DNA of 64,000 nucleotides, taken from Rhizoclosmatium globosum. Taxonomy: Eukaryota; Chytridiomycota; Chytridiomycetes; Chytridiales; Chytriomycetaceae. The translations under genes and the position numbers were made by a program. Each line of letters begins with the position of its first letter. Position 1 is the stretch's first letter. The stretch is from assembly GCA_002104985.1 (NCBI GenBank), contig MCGO01000010.1:248001-312000 (forward strand), given 5' to 3'. The notes beneath the pieces are model-generated. The model ran no database searches and had not been told where the DNA came from. It worked only from the letters and a program-made list of their open reading frames with translations. Shown here piece by piece: positions 15,452 to 45,100 of this stretch.

Positions 15452-17126
15452 GAAGCCAATTCAAGAACGACTCCTTGGGAAAGTGCAGGCTGAGATTCCA
15501 GCAGGACCGCTCATGATCGCACCAAACCCACTCAACATTGTGTCCCTTGAACCAGCCGATGGAGACGACCTCCTTATCCCAGCGAAACGAAGCGCATCAG
15601 ATGAAATCATGATGCCTAGTTTGCCCTCAAAGATGCGGCTCTCAAATGAAACTGTATCTGCGCCACCTCCTCAACAACCTCCTCCTCAACTACCCCCTCG
15701 CATCAACAATCTGCCTCAATGGTTTACAAATGGAGTCGCAATGCAGTATCCAACAGTTAGCCACGATGACTGGCGTATGATCATGAACGAATGCCTTCGA
15801 CTTCGCAGCCTCACCAATAGCTTTGGAGGCGCAAACATCAACATTGACGCACCTGATCGCGAATCAACACTTGTCGGCCTTGTACTTTCCGAAGCCATTC
15901 AGAAACTCCAACGGTTTGTTGTATCGCAGCCACCACCAACTGTCCTCGCTACAACTTCGAATGTCCAACAAATCGAACACGACCCTCAATCAGACACCTT
16001 TGTACGCGTGAATGCTTCATCAATTACTGTCTTGAAGCAACTGGTTCCTCTCATCAAGCCAGAAACCTTTGTACCTCTTCGTTTCAAAAGTGACCTTGGA
16101 GTCCATCCATCATGGGCTTCGCGCAAAAGTGTAGCAACAGGAAAGTGGCAGGAGATTAAGGATGCGGTGCATGTGTGGCCAGCTCTGAATGAGCGCTTGG
16201 GAAGTTCAACCTCTTATGGATCAGATACATTGATTGCGATCTCTCCACTCACAAAAGCAGTGGATTTCCCCCTTCAACTTGTTTACTTACTATCCACCCA
16301 TGTTACTCCACTTGAATTCCTTACTGAAACTAGCCATTTGGACAAAATCAGCGAACTTCGATCCAAAGTCAAGGACTTCCCCAATATCGACGATGCCGTA
16401 AAGTCATACCTCCAACGTGACAAACGTCCCTTTACTATTACAACGCTACAGCAGTTTATCAGTGGGATGGAGAAAATGAAAGAGATCCTGGCGGTAGTTC
16501 TTTGGGATGACTATGGAGAAATCTGTTCCCCTGATATTGACTCCTACCTCCACCAAATTCACAAATGGTTCGAACACAACCCTAGTCTGCATCAGAAGGA
16601 TCAATTCTCGAACTTCATTCTATTCCATATGGAACATGCAAATATCTGTGCCGCGAAGAATCGGAAGCTATCGGAAGTAACTGAAGACCGTGCAGCCCTT
16701 CTATATCAGTACTTGCCCCACATCAATACATCTGAAGCAGTCCGTCATGTCAACTTTGCAAACTGGCAACACAAATATCCAATTCCAAATCCTCCAAATC
16801 CAAACCCACCAAACCCAAACCCAAACCATATCCCTGACCCTAACACCCAATCCAAATATTCGACCGTTCGTCCAAAGAGTACAAACGCAACTGTTTATCA
16901 ACGTCTGGGAAACAACAACGAACGTGCGATGCTATTCAAATCAATGCCATCATTTGACGATAACGGGATGTCCAAAGTTCTTTGCTTCAGTTTCAATTAT
17001 ACCAAAGCCTGCAAACAAGGATCAAACTGTCGTTTCCTTCACTGTTGCCATCCTTGTGTCAGAGACAGAGGAATCAAGGCTTTCCATGCTGCAAATATTG
17101 AACATCCAAATGAGTTCTTTCAATAA
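15381..17126 (+). CDS. Retrotransposon ORF1: Gag-like protein with a C-terminal CCCH zinc finger
   Basis: The protein has 581 residues and one exon. The N-terminal third is disordered and Pro-rich. The middle is largely helical without a recognised motif, as is usual for Gag proteins of this order. A Pro-Asn repeat follows at about 16781-16850. Near the C-terminus the spacing C-x8-C-x5-C-x3-H occurs in CFSFNYTKACKQGSNCRFLH, a CCCH zinc finger likely to bind RNA. The start codon lies inside repeat A1. The last 17 nt overlap the start of ORF2 (ATG at 17110) in a different frame. Confidence 0.8.
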   Translation: MSSSGTAERDDKVAHQTRAADQKKKPIQERLLGKVQAEIPAGPLMIAPNPLNIVSLEPADGDDLLIPAKRSASDEIMMPSLPSKMRLSNETVSAPPPQQPPPQLPPRINNLPQWFTNGVAMQYPTVSHDDWRMIMNECLRLRSLTNSFGGANINIDAPDRESTLVGLVLSEAIQKLQRFVVSQPPPTVLATTSNVQQIEHDPQSDTFVRVNASSITVLKQLVPLIKPETFVPLRFKSDLGVHPSWASRKSVATGKWQEIKDAVHVWPALNERLGSSTSYGSDTLIAISPLTKAVDFPLQLVYLLSTHVTPLEFLTETSHLDKISELRSKVKDFPNIDDAVKSYLQRDKRPFTITTLQQFISGMEKMKEILAVVLWDDYGEICSPDIDSYLHQIHKWFEHNPSLHQKDQFSNFILFHMEHANICAAKNRKLSEVTEDRAALLYQYLPHINTSEAVRHVNFANWQHKYPIPNPPNPNPPNPNPNHIPDPNTQSKYSTVRPKSTNATVYQRLGNNNERAMLFKSMPSFDDNGMSKVLCFSFNYTKACKQGSNCRFLHCCHPCVRDRGIKAFHAANIEHPNEFFQ

Positions 17127-19115
17127 AGCGATTGGTGAAGACGCGTTACAATATCTTGACCCAATTCTATTGCAATCTAAACCAACCAATCAACATTTGC
17201 CCAACCTTCTGTCCCCAACCATTCTTAAGATCCCAAAATATCTTGAACCACATCTTGAGGAACCAAAAAATATCTGGACTATTGAGCAACTTAATGCAAA
17301 CTGCAAGAAAATGTTCCCAAGATGGAGCCGAGGGCTAATTCAAACCCCAAACAAAGCTATCTGCCACCCGGCAGCAGAATCAACAATATATCAAAAGCCT
17401 ATTATAATTCCAAACACGTCTGCACCAAATTATTGGAAAATTATGACAGAGCTTTCCAGGTTTCCTGGATTCTCTCCAAGAACGCCAATAAATATCCCAA
17501 GATTTGCCGAATGTATGAAAACACACCCAAACCAATGTTTTGTACAATCTGTCATCTATTCCTTGTGTCACGGATTCCCTGCTGGAGACGGAGATCTGGA
17601 AAGACCAAAGCAACCAAGAATCCGCCAACAACATCCACTTACAGAAGATGATATGGCAATTGTAAGAAAGAATCGTGACAAAGAAGTGACAGCTGGCAGA
17701 CTGACTCAACTTACACATATTCCAAATTATTGCTCCACTGTTTCACTATTTGTGGACCGCAAAAAGACAAAACCACGTCTCATACATGATTTGTCCTTCC
17801 CAAGAGGTGACTCACCAAATGATCATGTGTCAGACAATGAAGTACATGTCCGATATGATACCATACAAGACTATATACCAACAATGCGAAAAGCACAAAC
17901 CCAATGCCCAAATGGATATGTTGCAGTACAGTGGAAAACAGATGTCCGGGGAGCTTTTCGTCTTATTCCCAACCACCCAATCAATTCATCCCTCCAAATT
18001 CAGCTTATTGATAGAATCCCTTATGCAGATCGTTCAAAATCTTTTGGAGGGCGTGAAGGACCTCATGACTGGACTTCAGTTGCTCACCTTTTGGCGTGGT
18101 ATGCAATTCAACATCTATCCCTGAATGTCTATGTGATGATGGATGATTTCTGGGGAACTTGCTATCAAGCACACGCTGACTTTGAAAAAGGAATGAAACC
18201 AAATGAGATGAACAAAATGAAAGATTTTCTCCACTCTCTTGGAATTGAGACAAGTGACGAGAAAGATGTATGGGGACAAAAAATTACAATTGTTGGCTTC
18301 GAAGTTGACATCCAAAACCAAACTATCTCACTTGACCCAAAGAAAATCAGTGAAATGCTTGTGTATCTCAAAAACTGGATAGACAATCCCCGACCACAAT
18401 ACCGACAACACTATGATGAACTTACAGGAAGCCTAAATTGGATCTGTAACGTCTACTTCTACACAAAGCCATTTATGAGTCCAATTTATAGTCAGACTGC
18501 TGGTCAATCACGGCATTCAGCAATCTGCCCAAATGAGCAGACTATTAATGCCTTAAGTTGGATCCATGATTACATCAAAACAGCTCCGCCACAAAGATTT
18601 CTCAACCTTGAAGCTTGGACAATCAATCAAGCAGATCTTCATGTATATGCTGATGCAACTCCATCTGGTTTTGGTATTTGGATCAGTGAATGGAATGAAG
18701 GCTGGTGGTTTCAACATTACAAACCATTTACATTTCTTGACAACACCCCCTTATTATCCATAATGTAGAGTTATATGCTCAACTTGTAGCTCTCTATATC
18801 ATATCCCATCGAATCACAAACATCAAAGTACTCCAGTTTACAGATAATCAACCTACATTTGAAAACTTGGATTCCCTTCATTCAACAAACCCTTTCAATC
18901 AAACTATTTTGCAAACTATTGTCACCATTGAAATCAAATCAAATATCTCACTCCGACCACAGTGGCTCTGTTCAGAAAAGAATTACATCACTGATTGTTT
19001 ATCCCGAAACAAAATCCAGGATATGCAGAAAGAATTTCCATTTGCCAAGTTCAGAGAACTTGAATATTGCAACTTACCAGAATTGAAGTCATATGAGAAT
19101 GTCTTTTCCAAATAA
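17110..19115 (+). CDS. Retrotransposon ORF2: reverse transcriptase and RNase H, with a frame break
   Basis: The RT shows the DIRS-order motifs RLIHDLSFPRGDSPND, WKTDVRGAFRLIP (motif A aspartate) and VYVMMDDFWG (motif C, MMDDF in place of the common YxDD). RNase H begins with HVYADATPSGFGIW and should run on through a conserved ELYAQ block. That block is in the -1 frame. The first frame ends at 18768, while the continuing frame is open to 19115. The switch fits the loss of one C in the run of five C at about 18747-18751. It could be real decay, a sequence error or, less likely, programmed slippage. The starting Met at 17110 overlaps ORF1. Confidence 0.85.
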
Positions 19116-19126
19116 ATCCTTTCTTC

Positions 19127-20182
19127 ATGAGTGACTGGTTCGATATCCATGAAACTGTACCCACCTGGCCAAACCACCACCGCAAACCCATTCGCGCATT
19201 CTCCTCCACAGAACTCAAAGATGCTACGCAGCATCTTATTAGAAGCTCTTCTGAAACCTCGACCAACAAAGGCCATCAAAATGCATGGAGCCTTTGGATC
19301 TTGTTCTGCAACCTTCACCCAGCACTGGTTTCCAATGACCTCCCCGACAATGCTTTGAAGGTTGCACAGTTTGCAACATGGATTACGTCGCAAGGTTACA
19401 AACCTGGAACAGTGGATCAGTATGTCGCAGGCATTGGAGCAGTCTACACTGAACTCGGATATACAAACTGGATAACCATCCGATTGCACCCGTCTTTGAA
19501 AAAGGTTCTAAAAGGCGGTCAAAAAGAATGGAACCGAAACCCAGCGAATGTATTGATTAAGCACAAGGATGTCCTGACGTTCTCAGAATTCTGTCGCCTT
19601 CTACAAACATGGGATCCGACAGATTGCCTGCATGACAACCTACTATTTCAGTCAATTTTAGTCTTTGGATTTGTGGCTCTTCATCGTCTGGCAGAGCTTG
19701 TTGATTCTGACATCTTGGAAGAAGCTCATCAAAACCGAAGCCACAGGATTCTTCTTTCGTCCATCTACTACAACAACCCAACCCAACCATCCTTCATTGA
19801 ATACTTCTTACCATATCACAAAGCCGATCCTCTATCCAAAGGTACAACTGGTCGCATTGTCTCAATGACTTTGTGGAACAACGCCAATCCTATTCCATTA
19901 CTCATGGCATACTTCACATCTCGAATTCAGTTACAAAACAGTCCATATTTATTCGTGACTTCAAACAATGTTATTCCAACACGAAAGTGGTTCATGACAC
20001 GACTTCACCAACGAACTCGTACTAACTTGGGAAGCAAATCCCTTCGAGCAGGAGGAGCAACAAATTGGGCACTGCAAGGAAAATCTGCCCGTGAAATACA
20101 AAATCTCGGAAGATGGTCCACTGATACCTGGAAAGTCTACATCACTAAGTGGACAGCCTTGCAACGTGCCCTAAATCAATAA
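19127..20182 (+). CDS. Retrotransposon tyrosine recombinase (YR)
   Basis: This 351-residue recombinase would insert the circular DNA form of the element. An N-terminal SAM-like core-binding region covers about residues 30-150. The catalytic domain carries Arg187 (FVALHRLAEL), the box II segment KSLR307AGGAT, Trp330 in NLGRW, and Tyr338 in WKVYITKW. Box II has Lys304 where HxxR would have His. The RAGGAT and LGRW blocks are typical of DIRS/Ngaro and Crypton recombinases. The frame is intact. It begins 12 bp after the stop of the RNase H frame, so expression may need reinitiation or its own start. Confidence 0.88.
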   Translation: MSDWFDIHETVPTWPNHHRKPIRAFSSTELKDATQHLIRSSSETSTNKGHQNAWSLWILFCNLHPALVSNDLPDNALKVAQFATWITSQGYKPGTVDQYVAGIGAVYTELGYTNWITIRLHPSLKKVLKGGQKEWNRNPANVLIKHKDVLTFSEFCRLLQTWDPTDCLHDNLLFQSILVFGFVALHRLAELVDSDILEEAHQNRSHRILLSSIYYNNPTQPSFIEYFLPYHKADPLSKGTTGRIVSMTLWNNANPIPLLMAYFTSRIQLQNSPYLFVTSNNVIPTRKWFMTRLHQRTRTNLGSKSLRAGGATNWALQGKSAREIQNLGRWSTDTWKVYITKWTALQRALNQ

Positions 20183-28139: not shown

Positions 28140-29857
28140 ATGCCAGTACGTCCCTTTCTGGCTTTCCATCACAATTCAATTTGTAACAAAACCAACAAAC
28201 AAAACCAACCACGAATACTGCATAGATGACAGTCGGAACCCCAGAAACGCTCTCTGTCCTCGCCAACTCGTCGCTCTTCCCCGGTCTCACCGAGGCCCAG
28301 CTCCAGTCGATTGCCTCTGAGATGGAGCTCAGTGTGTTCAACAAGGGCGAGGTTCTCTACCGCGAAGGCGACAAGGCCTCGTACTTGTTCCTGATCACAG
28401 CCGGCCAAGTCGAAGTGTCCAAGCGAGTGGATTCCAACGACGAGACATCCGAGTCTGTCAAGCTGGTCACACTTGGACCAGGCGAGTACGTTGGCGAATC
28501 CATTGTGAGTGTCGCTGTTGTTTATTCCTTTTCTGATCTAATAACCAACCAACCAACCAACCAACCAACCAACCAACCAACCAACCAACCAAACCAGCTC
28601 TCTGGCCTCCCAATCAATGCCACAATTGTGTCCGCCGAAGACAACACGTCGGCCCTGCGCCTCGACCACGCCACCTTCGCGTCGCTGCTGAGTGAGCACC
28701 CAGCCTTGTCCGCATCGCTGCTCAAGGGTCTCTCGCACGAGCTCCGCACTTTCAGAAACGTCCTCACATCAACCCTCGCAAAACACGCTGCTGCCACAAA
28801 GAAGGCCGCCTCCTCAACAAAGAAGACGATCCAAATGTCGGTCTTTGACTTTATGCGCCACGAGAAGGAATCCTTTGAACAGGCCGTGTCAAACTTCGAA
28901 GCAACCCTCCCTGAAGATACCCAACTCGTTGTCCAGTACTTTGAGCCTAAGCTCGATATCAACACTGTCCGTCTTGCCGCCGGCTCCCAGGTCGTCTGCA
29001 TCTTTGTGAACGATACTGCCACCGCCGACGTTCTCACTGCCCTTTCCGCCATGGGTGTCAAGCTGCTCGCCCTCCGTTGCGCCGGATTCGACATGGTTGA
29101 CCTCAAGGCCGCAAAGGCCCTCAACATTGACATTGCCCGTGTCCCCGCCTACTCCCCCTACGCCGTCGCCGAATTCGCAGCAACCCTCGCAATGTCCTTG
29201 AACAGAAAAATCGTGCCCGCCTCTCAACGCGTCAAGACTGGAAACTTTTCTCTCGCCGGTCTCGTTGGTTTCGATTTCTACGGAAAGACTGTCGGTGTCA
29301 TTGGAACTGGAAAGATTGGACAATGTTTCATCAAGATTATGCTTGGTTTCGGGTGCAAGGTTGTCATGTATGATGCGTACCCTTCAAAAGAAGTTGCTAC
29401 TTGGGAGAACTGTACCTATGTCACTCTTGACGAGCTGTACGCTCAGTCTCGTGTCATTTCTCTGCATGCGCCATTGTTCCCTGAGACGATGCACATGATC
29501 AATGCCCAAAGTATTGCAAAGATGCAACGTGGTGTTATTCTCATCAACACTTCTCGTGGTGGTTTGGTCAACACTAAGGATCTTATTGATGGAATCAAGT
29601 CCGGACATGTCGCTGCTGCAGGTCTTGACGTGTACGAGAACGAAAAGTCTCTCTTCTTTGAGGACCACTCGCTCACCATTATGCAGGATGAGTACTACGC
29701 TCGTCTCATGACTTTCCCCAATGTAATTGTCACTGGACACCAGGCTTTCTTGAGTGAAGAGGCTCTTGAAGCTATCGGCCGTGTCACCATGCACAACGTC
29801 TTCCAAAAGATGGTTGAGGGCAAGACTGGCAAGGAATTGGACAATGTTGTCTTGTAA
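28140..29857 (+). CDS. Fusion of a cyclic-nucleotide-binding-type domain and a D-lactate dehydrogenase
   Basis: The exons are 28140-28145, 28226-28504 and 28598-29857 (514 residues). Residues about 12-140 form a CNB fold: SSLFPGLTEAQLQSIASEM, FNKGEVLYREGD, FLITAGQVEV, LGPGEYVGESIL and ALRLDHATFASLL. In the phosphate-binding cassette the Glu of GES is kept, but the usual Arg before A-x-[VI] is Asn (PINATIV), so cAMP binding is doubtful. Residues about 185-514 form a D-2-hydroxyacid dehydrogenase of LdhA type. They show the catalytic Arg in LALRCAGFDMVDL, the NAD fold GVIGTGKIGQ, AYSPYAVAEFA, the Glu in GLDVYENEKSLFFED and the His in TGHQAFLSEEAL. It should reduce pyruvate to D-lactate with NADH, possibly under control of the N-terminal domain. 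Confidence 0.88.
28541..28593 (+). repeat. Tetranucleotide microsatellite in an intron
   Basis: About twelve AACC units lie in intron 2 (28505-28597) of the D-LDH fusion gene, reaching almost to its AG acceptor. Similar short AACCAACC runs precede other genes here, for example at 1-9, 2746-2758 and 20866-20880. Confidence 0.85.
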
Positions 29858-41338: not shown

Positions 41339-41860
41339 TTACTGAGCAACAGTTGTCTCTTCGCGACGTTCTGGGTGCTCCATAGAACAAAAACGGAACC
41401 AGCACATGGTGTTGCGACGGACTGAAACATTTGCAACTTCAGCCTTGACAGCGACTGGCTCAATGCCGCGACGGTTGAGTGTTTTCCGGCTTCCGTTTGG
41501 ACACAACGTGAAAAAGCAGTACGAATTGCGGCGGACAAGAGCAACTCCAACTTGGCCTTCAGTAGCACTAGGAATCATGGAAGCAATAGAATCACGACGT
41601 TCTGGATGTTCCATAGAACAGAATCTGAACCAACACATTGTGTTTCGGCGGACTGGAATAGTAGCTACTTGAGCCTCGGCAGCCACTGCAACTGGAATAA
41701 CAGAATCGCGACGTTCAGGGTGTTCCATGGAGCAAAATCGGAACCAACACATGGTATTGCGACGAGTTGGACTTGTGGCAACATTAGAATCCGCTGGCAA
41801 AGATGCTGGAAGAGCCAAAGTCAACTGGCAAATAGCAAGGAGAACAAATAAGAATTGCAT
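41339..41860 (-). CDS. Secreted multi-peptide precursor with four Cys-loop peptides between Arg-Arg sites
   Basis: A single exon of 173 residues. Residues 1-17 are a signal peptide (MQFLFVLLAICQLTLAL). The rest alternates spacers of 16-20 residues with dibasic-bounded units. Residues 35-49, 73-87 and 150-164 are the identical peptide NTMCWFRFCSMEHPE, each preceded and followed by Arg-Arg. Residues 112-129 are a variant, NSYCFFTLCPNGSRKTLN, also between Arg-Arg. Every unit has two Cys four residues apart (CxxxxC), so each could form a small disulphide ring. This is the layout of Kex2/furin-processed hormone or pheromone precursors. The function is unknown. The ring resembles urotensin II (CFWKYC) in form only; common descent is not implied. 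Confidence 0.85.
   Translation of the reverse strand: MQFLFVLLAICQLTLALPASLPADSNVATSPTRRNTMCWFRFCSMEHPERRDSVIPVAVAAEAQVATIPVRRNTMCWFRFCSMEHPERRDSIASMIPSATEGQVGVALVRRNSYCFFTLCPNGSRKTLNRRGIEPVAVKAEVANVSVRRNTMCWFRFCSMEHPERREETTVAQ
41363..41764 (-). repeat. Four tandem peptide-coding units in the secreted precursor
   Basis: The units including flanking Arg-Arg codons are at 41708-41764, 41594-41650, 41468-41533 (variant) and 41363-41419. Among the three identical units, codons for Arg, Asn, Thr, Cys, Phe, Ser, Glu, His and Pro differ at third positions (and AGA versus CGN for Arg), but no amino acid changes. The spacers are far less alike. Confidence 0.85.
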
Positions 41861-41923
41861 AGTTAGGCTGAGTGTGTTAGAAAGCTTTATGAATATCGTT
41901 TTGATGTGACTTTGGTGTCCCCA

Positions 41924-41931
41924 GCTTTATA
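41924..41931 (-). promoter_or_regulatory. Candidate TATA box of the secreted peptide precursor
   Basis: TATAAAGC on the minus strand, 64-71 bp upstream of the start codon at 41860. The position is plausible for a TATA box with a short 5' UTR. No experimental support is available. Confidence 0.35.
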
Positions 41932-42149
41932 GCAGTTTTGATTCCCAAAGCGGCATATGAAGGCGGTATTAAATGCCGTTAATAGGCCAATGGTACCTGA
42001 AATATAATTGTTTTCTGGTTGGTTGAAATGGGTCAATGGGTCATAATCCCCTTCAACCCTTCCTCAAACTTTTTCAACAAATCAATACCAGAAGTCTCAT
42101 TATCACGAGTTATATTCACAAGTCAACGAATAAATCACAAGTCACAAAA

Positions 42150-45100
42150 TCACAAAATCAAAACGAACTTCTTGGAAACAGTCAAGACACCGTTTCCAGA
42201 ACCCTCCAAAACAGTCCACTTTGGCAAGACAGCCTTTTCCAAAGAGTCCCATCCTGGAATGTACGCCAAATCATCAACATAACATCCCACCTTCATCGTC
42301 AATAACTTAGCACTTGCACCCAACTCATCAATACGGGTACGGTTCACCTTCACAGTAAATGTCTGTGGCTCATCAAAGTAACTCTTGTACGCAAACGCAG
42401 TTCCAACACGAGAGTCGAACTTTGAAGGACGAACAGAGTTGGTTCCTGGCCAGACGTTGTAAGGATAGATTCCACCCTTTTCATTCAATCTCCAAGCATT
42501 ATCATCGCCTTCGACACCACCAAAGAAGCAAATACGACTGTACTCGCTACGAACAGTCACAGACCAGGTGCTCTTTCCAATCTCCTGGAACTCCACAACA
42601 TCAAGAGCCTTAGCGAGTTCAGGGAAACGTGGTCCATGGATCTTGTTGGGGATTGGGTCAATGGAACACTTTGTTGTAACTTTGTTGACCGCTGAGCATT
42701 TGGTGGACTTTGGCTTCAAAACAGTTGGAACAAGGTATGGAAGAGCCAAGGTGTTGAAAGTGAGGTCGTAAGTTGTCTTTGGGTTGTTGACATCAGTTAC
42801 GTCCATTTCCATTTTGGGGATGATCTTCAAAGGGTGTTCACGGTCAAATGGAGCCACATCACTTGGAATGGTCAAGGGCTCGTACAGTTGATTGAGCAGA
42901 AGAAGAGAAGCGAGACCAAGAACAAAGAGAGACAACTGAGAAGTTCGAGCAATGGTATTAGGGGCAGTCAACACGTAAGGCAGGAGGGAAACGACGAGAA
43001 TGCTGGCAAACAGCGTAACCAATCCAATAACTCCCAATGCTGGAGTACCATCGATGATAGTTGGCTCAATTCCCATGAGAAGCTGGTTAATAGTGTGGAG
43101 TGTGCTGACAACGGGCATGACAGTGGCAGCACCAAAGACAGGGAACCAATTGGGAAGGTTAGAGCGCTTCTTCTTAGGTGGCTCGACCTTCTTGACTTCA
43201 GCAGCTTCACCCTCCGCAGAGGTAGCGTCAGCAGTCCCGGCCTTACGGTTCCTCAGCTTGTCATCTGTTTTGATTGGTGCAGCAGCCTTCTCTTCGTTCT
43301 TTCCGTCGCCCTGTTTCGATTCATTTCCGAACCAAGATCTCTCAAGCAACCAATCATGGCCAAATGCAAGACATCCGAACAGAACCCATACACCATGAGT
43401 GTAAAGCAATCCAATGTCATGTCTGGCGGAGATCGCAACAAGGGCAGTGACGGGAACCCAAGCAATCAAAGTGCCGACTTGAGAAACATGCCAGTTGAGC
43501 ATTTCTTGGTGTTCATTTGCGGGAGTAGCATTCACATCAGTGGTGGTGAATGGAGATCTGATAAAGTAAAACGGAGCCAAGGCACCGAAAGTACTGCTGG
43601 CAAACACAGCAGCTCTTGCAGCAATTGGATGACCATAGATGGCGAGGGGACGAATCTGAATGAAGTTTAGAAACGTGAATAAAAACCGTTTTTTGGAAAC
43701 AAACCTGTTCAATCGCGGCGATCACAGCAATTGGAGCAACAGAAGATAGAACTAGAGCAGCCAAAAACTGGAATGCAACCAGAGTGAAAGATACATTCTT
43801 GACTTCTCTGGCGTGAGCAGCAACGAAATTGTGAGTTCTTGAAATCCCCAAACTAATCAAGAGGATAACGAGACCAAACAACGAAGAGGCAGCAATGAAG
43901 TAGATGTGGAAAGGAATGACAGGCATGAACGCAAAGATCTCCATCCAGTAGACTCCCGGAGTCAAAGAATCAGATTCACTCCATTTTTCACCATTCATAA
44001 ATTTATCGTCTCGCAACAAGTTGACCACAGTCTTGACTGCACTGTCTCCCATATGCTGGAGCGAACTCACATATTGAGCGTTCCACTTGTCATTTTTGGT
44101 GTGGTAGTGATATCTGTCCTTGACAAAGGCAATGTCAATTCCAGCTTCACCGTTTTCGTTGTACACGTCATAGTCAGTGGTGCTTCGAACCATACCCAGA
44201 TTCATAACATCGTTTCCGATGACAGAACTGTAAGGCTGCAAAACGCTGTCGGCGTATGTTTTGAGCATGGTGTAATCACTTCCACGGTAGAGCATAGCTG
44301 GACCAGCTCTACCTCCACCCTCAAGGTTGATGGAGGCACGAACAGACTTGTAAAAATTGTGCTTTGTGAAATGACGAGCTCCCAATAGTCCACACTCTTC
44401 ACAGTTGTTGAGAACAAAAATGATGGAGTAAGGAAGAGGGTTCTCTTCGTCGGTGGAAAGAAGACGGATCATCTATATCACGATGTTAGTATCTATACTT
44501 GTTTCGCTGGTTTAACTTACTTCGAGGATAACCGCAACAGCGATACCGTCGTCGGAAGCACCAGGACTGCTAACGACAGCGTCATAGTGGGCACTGACCA
44601 ACAAAGATGGACACTCCTTTCCTCCCCTAAACTCACAAATACCTCTGAGCTTGACAATAATGTTGTCTAGAGCCAGTGAATAGGTCTTGTTCTATGAAGT
44701 CAAGAACCAGTTAGGACACAAATCTCCAAATCATCCAAAAGGGCAGCTTACTTGAGCCTGACGAGGGAAATCGAAAGGACCCGCCAATACAGACTTCTGG
44801 TCTCTTTCAATGTAGAGCCTCTTGTTTCCGTTCTTGGTTCCGTCCTTCCACTCATGAAGCATCGCAACAATCTCATCGGCAGTTTGGAAGTTAGCCTTCG
44901 AGGAGAAAGGTCTTGGGCCAAACTTTAAGATTTCCTCCAAGTGCAGCTGAAGAAGGACGAGTTAGATGTCGCGTTCAAGTTGAAAGACCCAATTTAAATA
45001 AACACACTTGAGCAACACGGGCATCGAACTTTGGCATGTGCTTTGGCGGGCCCCAGATTCGCTCAGTGATTCTAGTTACGATGAGCTCGGAGATGTCGAC

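Follow-up and report, generated by a model that had tools for sequence, protein, structure and literature searches.

Two predicted KEX2-processed repeat protein genes in the chytrid Rhizoclosmatium globosum share a conserved two-cysteine peptide

A short open frame in which a two-cysteine peptide recurs between pairs of arginines raises the question of what such a gene would release, and to what end. The frame is located in a stretch of 64,000 nucleotides (the window) from the water-living fungus Rhizoclosmatium globosum, which agrees with the chytrid origin proposed in the first-pass annotation. Precursor gene A (41339..41860, minus strand) is a single open frame from ATG to stop that requires no intron and encodes 173 amino acids followed by the stop codon. 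Its hydrophobic N-terminus opens with MQFLFVLLAICQLTLALPAS, and the signal-peptide-like sequence MQFLFVLLAICQLTLAL (41810..41860, minus strand, approximately residues 1-17) reaches a best mean hydropathy of 2.8 over 10 residues; this putative signal peptide was called from hydropathy and by eye, with no prediction of its cleavage site. Four units with Arg-Arg on both sides are distributed along the chain, all on the minus strand and with coordinates derived from the frame. Three of these are NTMCWFRFCSMEHPE, namely unit 1 (41714..41758), unit 2 (41600..41644) and unit 4 (41369..41413), while unit 3 (41474..41527) is the variant NSYCFFTLCPNGSRKTLN, and C-x4-C is present in every unit. The spacers between units are Val/Ala/Pro-rich, mildly acidic and 16-20 residues long. 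The layout claimed earlier, a signal peptide and four Arg-Arg units with CxxxxC in each, three identical and one variant, is thus borne out on this frame, with the signal peptide judged by hydropathy and eye. The variant unit (41474-41527) also contains CFFTLCPNG, which resembles the vasopressin/oxytocin pattern, likely by chance; that pattern has an Asn before the second Cys, which CFFTLCPNG lacks.

Gene A has a paralogue, gene B, on the same contig (C2:241517-242434, plus strand), ~47 kb away and 5.6 kb beyond the window edge, which encodes 305 amino acids and seven identical NTMCWFRFCSMEHPE units. A search of the species' own genome with gene A returned 10 rows, which comprise gene A itself, a copy on contig C144, and eight rows of gene B on C2 and C186. 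For the C144 copy, 3,519 bases around the gene are identical, and the window and C144 agree at 99.5% over 9.1 kb; the second copy of gene B on C186 shows 98.0% identity over 8.9 kb. These second copies look like alleles, and redundant assembly may be another source of them. When residues 1-88 of gene B were searched against the genome (E up to 10) for a further precursor with another core, all 16 rows fell on the two known genes or on their second copies, and the same was true of all 14 rows returned by the variant unit and spacers (E up to 10). A scan of the window and further loci for repeat-rich dibasic frames likewise yielded genes A and B, their second copies, frames antisense to B and to the B copy, and one unrelated weak frame.

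The likeness between the two genes extends into the sequence before them, where they share blocks within ~140 bases of the ATG and the resemblance fades farther upstream. In the A/B alignment, the proximal promoter block common to both (41900..42000, minus strand) contains, by eye, what we take to be a CCAAT box (plus-strand positions 41987-41991) and, some 65 bp ahead of the ATG, a box resembling TATAAA (41924-41932). When a 101-base promoter query was compared with the genome, all four rows were A, B and their second copies, with gene B matching at 79% over 75 of the 101 bases.

Whether the repeats have been kept by selection or merely copied can be judged from their codons. The identical 15-mer occurs in 10 of the 11 reference units (four in A, seven in B), and these ten are encoded by 10 distinct DNA sequences with 0 amino-acid differences. 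Across the 45 pairs of identical units and 19 codons (RR included), mean pS is 0.61, ranging from 0.28 to 1.02, and pN is 0.007, a value that arises from the AGA/CGN arginine codon path alone, as amino-acid differences are nil. Within their 15-codon core the ten units vary at 12 columns, which takes a minimum of 14 changes, every one synonymous; were mutation neutral and independent, such a pattern would arise with a probability between 4.5e-12 and 5.2e-10, according to the transition bias assumed. The variant unit of gene A was excluded from these counts, and the selection test therefore concerns the ten identical units only. For these units, strong purifying selection is supported, and there is strong sequence evidence that the peptide rather than its DNA has been kept. 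Recent copying of units is rejected, since no two of the ten share a DNA sequence and pairwise pS runs from 0.28 to ~1. This dN/dS-type comparison upholds both the observation that the three identical units of gene A differ only synonymously and the view, expressed in the first-pass annotation, that selection on the peptide accounts for this rather than recent copying.

The conservation is not absolute. Both cysteines are retained in 11 of 11 reference units and in all seven units of B on C186, and one of those seven carries a single replacement, R to G, which together with the variant unit of A contradicts strict invariance. When the copies of B are compared with each other, 4 differences fall in the 399 bases that encode units and RR, three synonymous and one the Arg-to-Gly replacement in unit 6, and 14 differing positions fall in the remaining 519 bases (three in one 3-base gap, seven replacements and four synonymous), small numbers that prove nothing alone. 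When A and B are compared outside the units, 22 of 33 aligned positions are identical in the signal region, and 18 spacer pairs show 29-79% identity.

Evidence suggests that genes A and B belong to a known kind of gene, the KEX2-processed repeat protein (KEP), because both display the published hallmarks of KEPs that could be tested. KEPs are defined by an N-terminal signal peptide, three or more near-identical fragments produced by cleavage at KR/RR, and repeats that make up at least 15% of the length (PMC6339444). There are three near-identical RR-bounded fragments in gene A and seven in gene B, the repeats occupy 26% of A (45/173) and 34% of B (105/305), the hydropathy and position of the N-terminal segment fit a signal peptide when judged by eye, and a kexin for the cutting exists in the species. 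KEPs have already been described in chytrids, with 178 of them in 14 of 19 Chytridiomycota strains, in a survey built on annotated proteins whose main text does not mention the genus Rhizoclosmatium (Umemura, 2020; PMC7329392). The label "undescribed" given to the precursor at first therefore holds for its core, which has no relative in the searched collections, and not for its kind, which is known, also in chytrids (PMC7329392).

No relatives were found among ~5.8 billion proteins for gene A (E<=10; lengths about 95-303 aa) or for gene B (E<=1; lengths 168-534 aa). In contigs from other sources, 15 pattern matches in viruses and 85 in bacteria and archaea gave 0 confirmed relatives. There was also no match among proteins of R. 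hyalinum, which the protein collection includes at least partly, and the gene seems missing from the R. globosum annotation as well. The collection does include R. globosum proteins, as seen from a neighbouring gene whose product matches BCR33DRAFT_15366 of that species at 100% identity; because it returned neither precursor, the deposited annotation probably lacks both A and B within the lengths searched, and an annotation-based KEP survey would therefore miss them. This suggests that KEP surveys made from annotated proteins can miss real genes. A literature search, with most subscription journals outside its scope, found nothing uniting Rhizoclosmatium with Kex2 repeat peptides. NCBIfam matches (IraD, HP0838) fell far below their cut-offs. 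Against a PDB library from which short animal peptides of <20 residues were excluded, the precursor gave five rows, designed "Bagel" proteins and a "Cell surface protein", the best with E 2.3e-4 over residues 96-126 and with no stretch passing alone.

Several features of the surroundings were recorded in passing. A peptidase gene adjoins each precursor gene, which may be chance: beside A (42150-44472) there is a gene for which a Peptidase_M28 domain is seen in the R. hyalinum counterpart, P0002, with no Pfam match for the window frame 42153-43502 itself, and beside B (L009:4563-5555) there is a Peptidase_M3 gene. Long open frames run antisense to the repeats in both genes (window 41406-41851 and L009:3796-4446); opposite-strand coding was considered as the cause of conservation and rejected, as the antisense frames are probably a by-product of repeat codon use. 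Elsewhere in the window, two adjacent long frames (16747-20182) look by eye like the reverse transcriptase and tyrosine recombinase of a DIRS-like element, with no Pfam match for either, and a D-2-hydroxyacid dehydrogenase frame (28226-29857) carries an N-terminal cyclic-nucleotide-binding domain, an unusual-looking pairing.

The enzyme families that such a precursor would need are encoded in the genome. The Kex2-type processing put forward in the first-pass annotation finds its counterpart in a kexin family, with 24 rows for the proprotein-convertase P domain, all above the cut-off and second copies counted, and with one genome frame matching yeast kexin over 401 residues at E 1.2e-97. Another frame matches kexin at E 5e-53 and, by eye, has a C-terminal transmembrane segment and acidic tail, as does Kex2 at its own C-terminus. 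The S10 carboxypeptidases, which we take to be the family of Kex1, are represented by 43 rows, a figure that does not count genes, as many rows are exon pieces or second copies. From the architecture of the precursor we infer cleavage, ring closure and release as follows. The precursor chain would enter the secretory pathway through its putative signal peptide, a Golgi kexin would cut after Arg-Arg on each side of every unit, and a Kex1-like S10 carboxypeptidase would remove the C-terminal Arg-Arg. The two cysteines of CWFRFC would then oxidise to close a six-residue ring, and the Val/Ala/Pro-rich spacers would be discarded. The predicted product, NTM-c[CWFRFC]-SMEHPE, has a computed oxidised monoisotopic mass of 1914.731 ([M+2H]2+ 958.373) and would be made three times per A chain and seven times per B chain, together with one 18-residue variant loop from A, for which the computed oxidised mass is 2061.940. 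It is very likely that the oxidised 15-residue loop is released.

As to what the loop does, our inference is weaker: once released it would serve outside the cell as a signal of fixed sequence, passing from one cell of the species to another and perceived by a receptor on the cell surface. Agreement in every letter across so many separate copies is in keeping with a ligand that has a specific partner, and because the conservation points to such a partner, a signal is preferred to a wall component or a bulk antimicrobial. A signalling role is thus the best reading of the peptide, with mating, zoospore gathering and host contact as candidate uses, and the account as a whole, in which KEP pre-pro-peptides release a disulphide loop that acts as an intercellular signal, is on balance judged probable, if modestly so. 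Standing against it are the third unit of gene A, which is a quite different loop, the R-to-G unit in the copy of B, and the failure to find an orthologue beyond this genome in collections that include some R. hyalinum proteins. It is also weakened by findings in Coprinopsis cinerea, where six KEP knock-outs had no apparent phenotype (PMC9769878). Little is known of the pheromones used by most early-diverging fungi (PMC6339444), and the peptide offers an exact, cheaply made candidate signal molecule for a chytrid, for which synthesis is feasible at once.

It is unlikely, though a serious alternative, that the loop is instead a weapon or a host-directed effector, whether antimicrobial, cytolytic or aimed at the organisms of the substrate. 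Its small size, its disulphide loop and its aromatic and basic residues would suit such a use, and cytolytic activity is known for other peptides released by kexin, candidalysin among them (PMC9769878). The main peptide, however, is not cationic (one Arg, one His and two Glu). Ten identical units are also unlike the diversification that is often seen in weapon peptides, and synthetic KEP peptides of C. cinerea were without antibacterial activity (PMC9769878). The fragments could also be structural or surface-active wall peptides like the Rep1 repellents of Ustilago, whose precursor is likewise cut at such sites and whose peptides form fibrils (PMC9769878). We hold this to be very unlikely, since the units here are short paired-cysteine loops and number only four to seven per precursor. 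Moreover, 10 of the 11 units are identical, whereas structural repeats usually tolerate substitutions.

Two further readings concern the chemistry and the origin of the repeats. The layout of the precursor is the same as that of the ustiloxin precursor (PMC7329392), which allows the peptide to be seen as a backbone on which further modification would build a cyclic RiPP of the ustiloxin/epichloecyclin type, a slim prospect on several counts. No UstYa match (PF11807, DUF3328) was obtained in the species' own genome, where the control genomes were silent too, or by Pfam in 8 of the 35 window frames of >=200 aa and in two neighbours of gene B. The survey detected DUF3328 only in Ascomycota and Basidiomycota, and it reports higher Tyr in KEPs accompanied by DUF3328 genes, whereas the main unit here has no Tyr and the variant one (PMC7329392). 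A UstYa-dependent form of the cyclic peptide entertained in the first-pass annotation is therefore regarded as unlikely. It is scarcely credible that the repeats represent a derivative or mimic of an HMG box in place of a secreted peptide, as could be supposed from Pfam HMG_box scores of 41.5 bits on gene B (cut-off 25.4) and 22.5 bits, below the cut-off, on gene A. The score accumulates across the near-identical units, and no single stretch passes in either protein; a lone unit goes unmatched at E<=10, a two-unit piece reaches 14.2 bits, only about the first 20-30 of the 69 profile positions are aligned, and a signal-peptide-like segment precedes the region. HMG-box homology is accordingly rejected as a summed repeat artefact.

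If the loop is indeed a signal, its receptor may be sought among the rhodopsin-family GPCRs, which are candidates only. These gave 26 rows in the genome, 15 of them above the cut-off (two only after adding neighbouring pieces), and the best row has two internal stop codons. Compared with the PDB, one GPCR matched the neuropeptide FF receptor, opsins and the free fatty acid receptor at E ~0.002-0.003, a second matched adrenergic receptors and opsins with a best E of 3e-8 (among the best 60 of 72 matches), and a third matched the free fatty acid receptor at E 0.0025; urotensin and somatostatin receptors were not singled out by any of the three among the matches listed, which for one GPCR were the best 60 of 72. 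Six of the 15 rows above the cut-off are on contigs C43, C390 and C420, which look like copies of one region. On C43 (16278-43380) several kexin-type protease genes are found near two rhodopsin-family GPCR genes, with a similar layout on C390 and C420: the two GPCRs (C43:37758-40264) have a kexin P domain ~3 kb away, at C43:43123, the two GPCR rows on C390 are ~1.5 kb from a P domain, and the two on C420 are ~12 kb from the nearest. This proximity is a post-hoc observation and a lead only, and no KEP was flagged in the 20 kb of the C43 contig examined. A more specific proposal, which we consider rather unlikely, is that of a neuropeptide-like system in which a kexin-released C-aromatic-aromatic-basic-aromatic-C peptide acts on class A GPCRs, two of them encoded among the expanded kexin genes of C43, as an STE2-free pheromone or zoospore signal, arisen in parallel with animals or from a shared opisthokont stock. 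If true, a flagellated early-diverging fungus would signal with a disulphide-ringed peptide as animal peptide hormones do.

Compared with other KEPs, which in general have been likened to animal neuropeptide precursors (Le Marquer, 2019; PMC6339444), genes A and B show the signal-peptide-like N-terminus, three or more near-identical RR-bounded fragments, and a repeat content above 15% of the length. They differ in that spacers alternate with the units, each unit having its own RR pair, and in a core that has no relative in the searched collections and apparently lies outside the annotated protein set used by surveys. A second comparison is with the two-cysteine alpha-type pheromones of Ascomycota, which are also short secreted peptides from precursors cut at dibasic sites (PMC6339444). 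The core in A and B is unlike those quoted for that group, such as RFCHLPGQGCSK or ...PCW (PMC6339444), and the units begin directly after RR, without an XA/XP dipeptide. The Pfam domains MF_alpha and MF_alpha_N are absent from both genes at E<=0.1, and the STE2 and STE3 profiles found no match in the species' own genome, with the control genomes silent too; STE2 has been reported from Ascomycota only (PMC12842992).

The likeness in form to urotensin II that was noticed at the outset is real as a pattern of residue classes, with the ring C-W-F-R-F-C equal to urotensin II C-F-W-K-Y-C in ring size and in the order of residue classes (PMC4406059). It is best read as convergence, because a six-residue ring and the many animal peptides available for comparison allow a chance match. 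The precursors also differ in what they carry, as those of A and B hold many copies of the peptide, whereas the animal urotensin precursor holds one.
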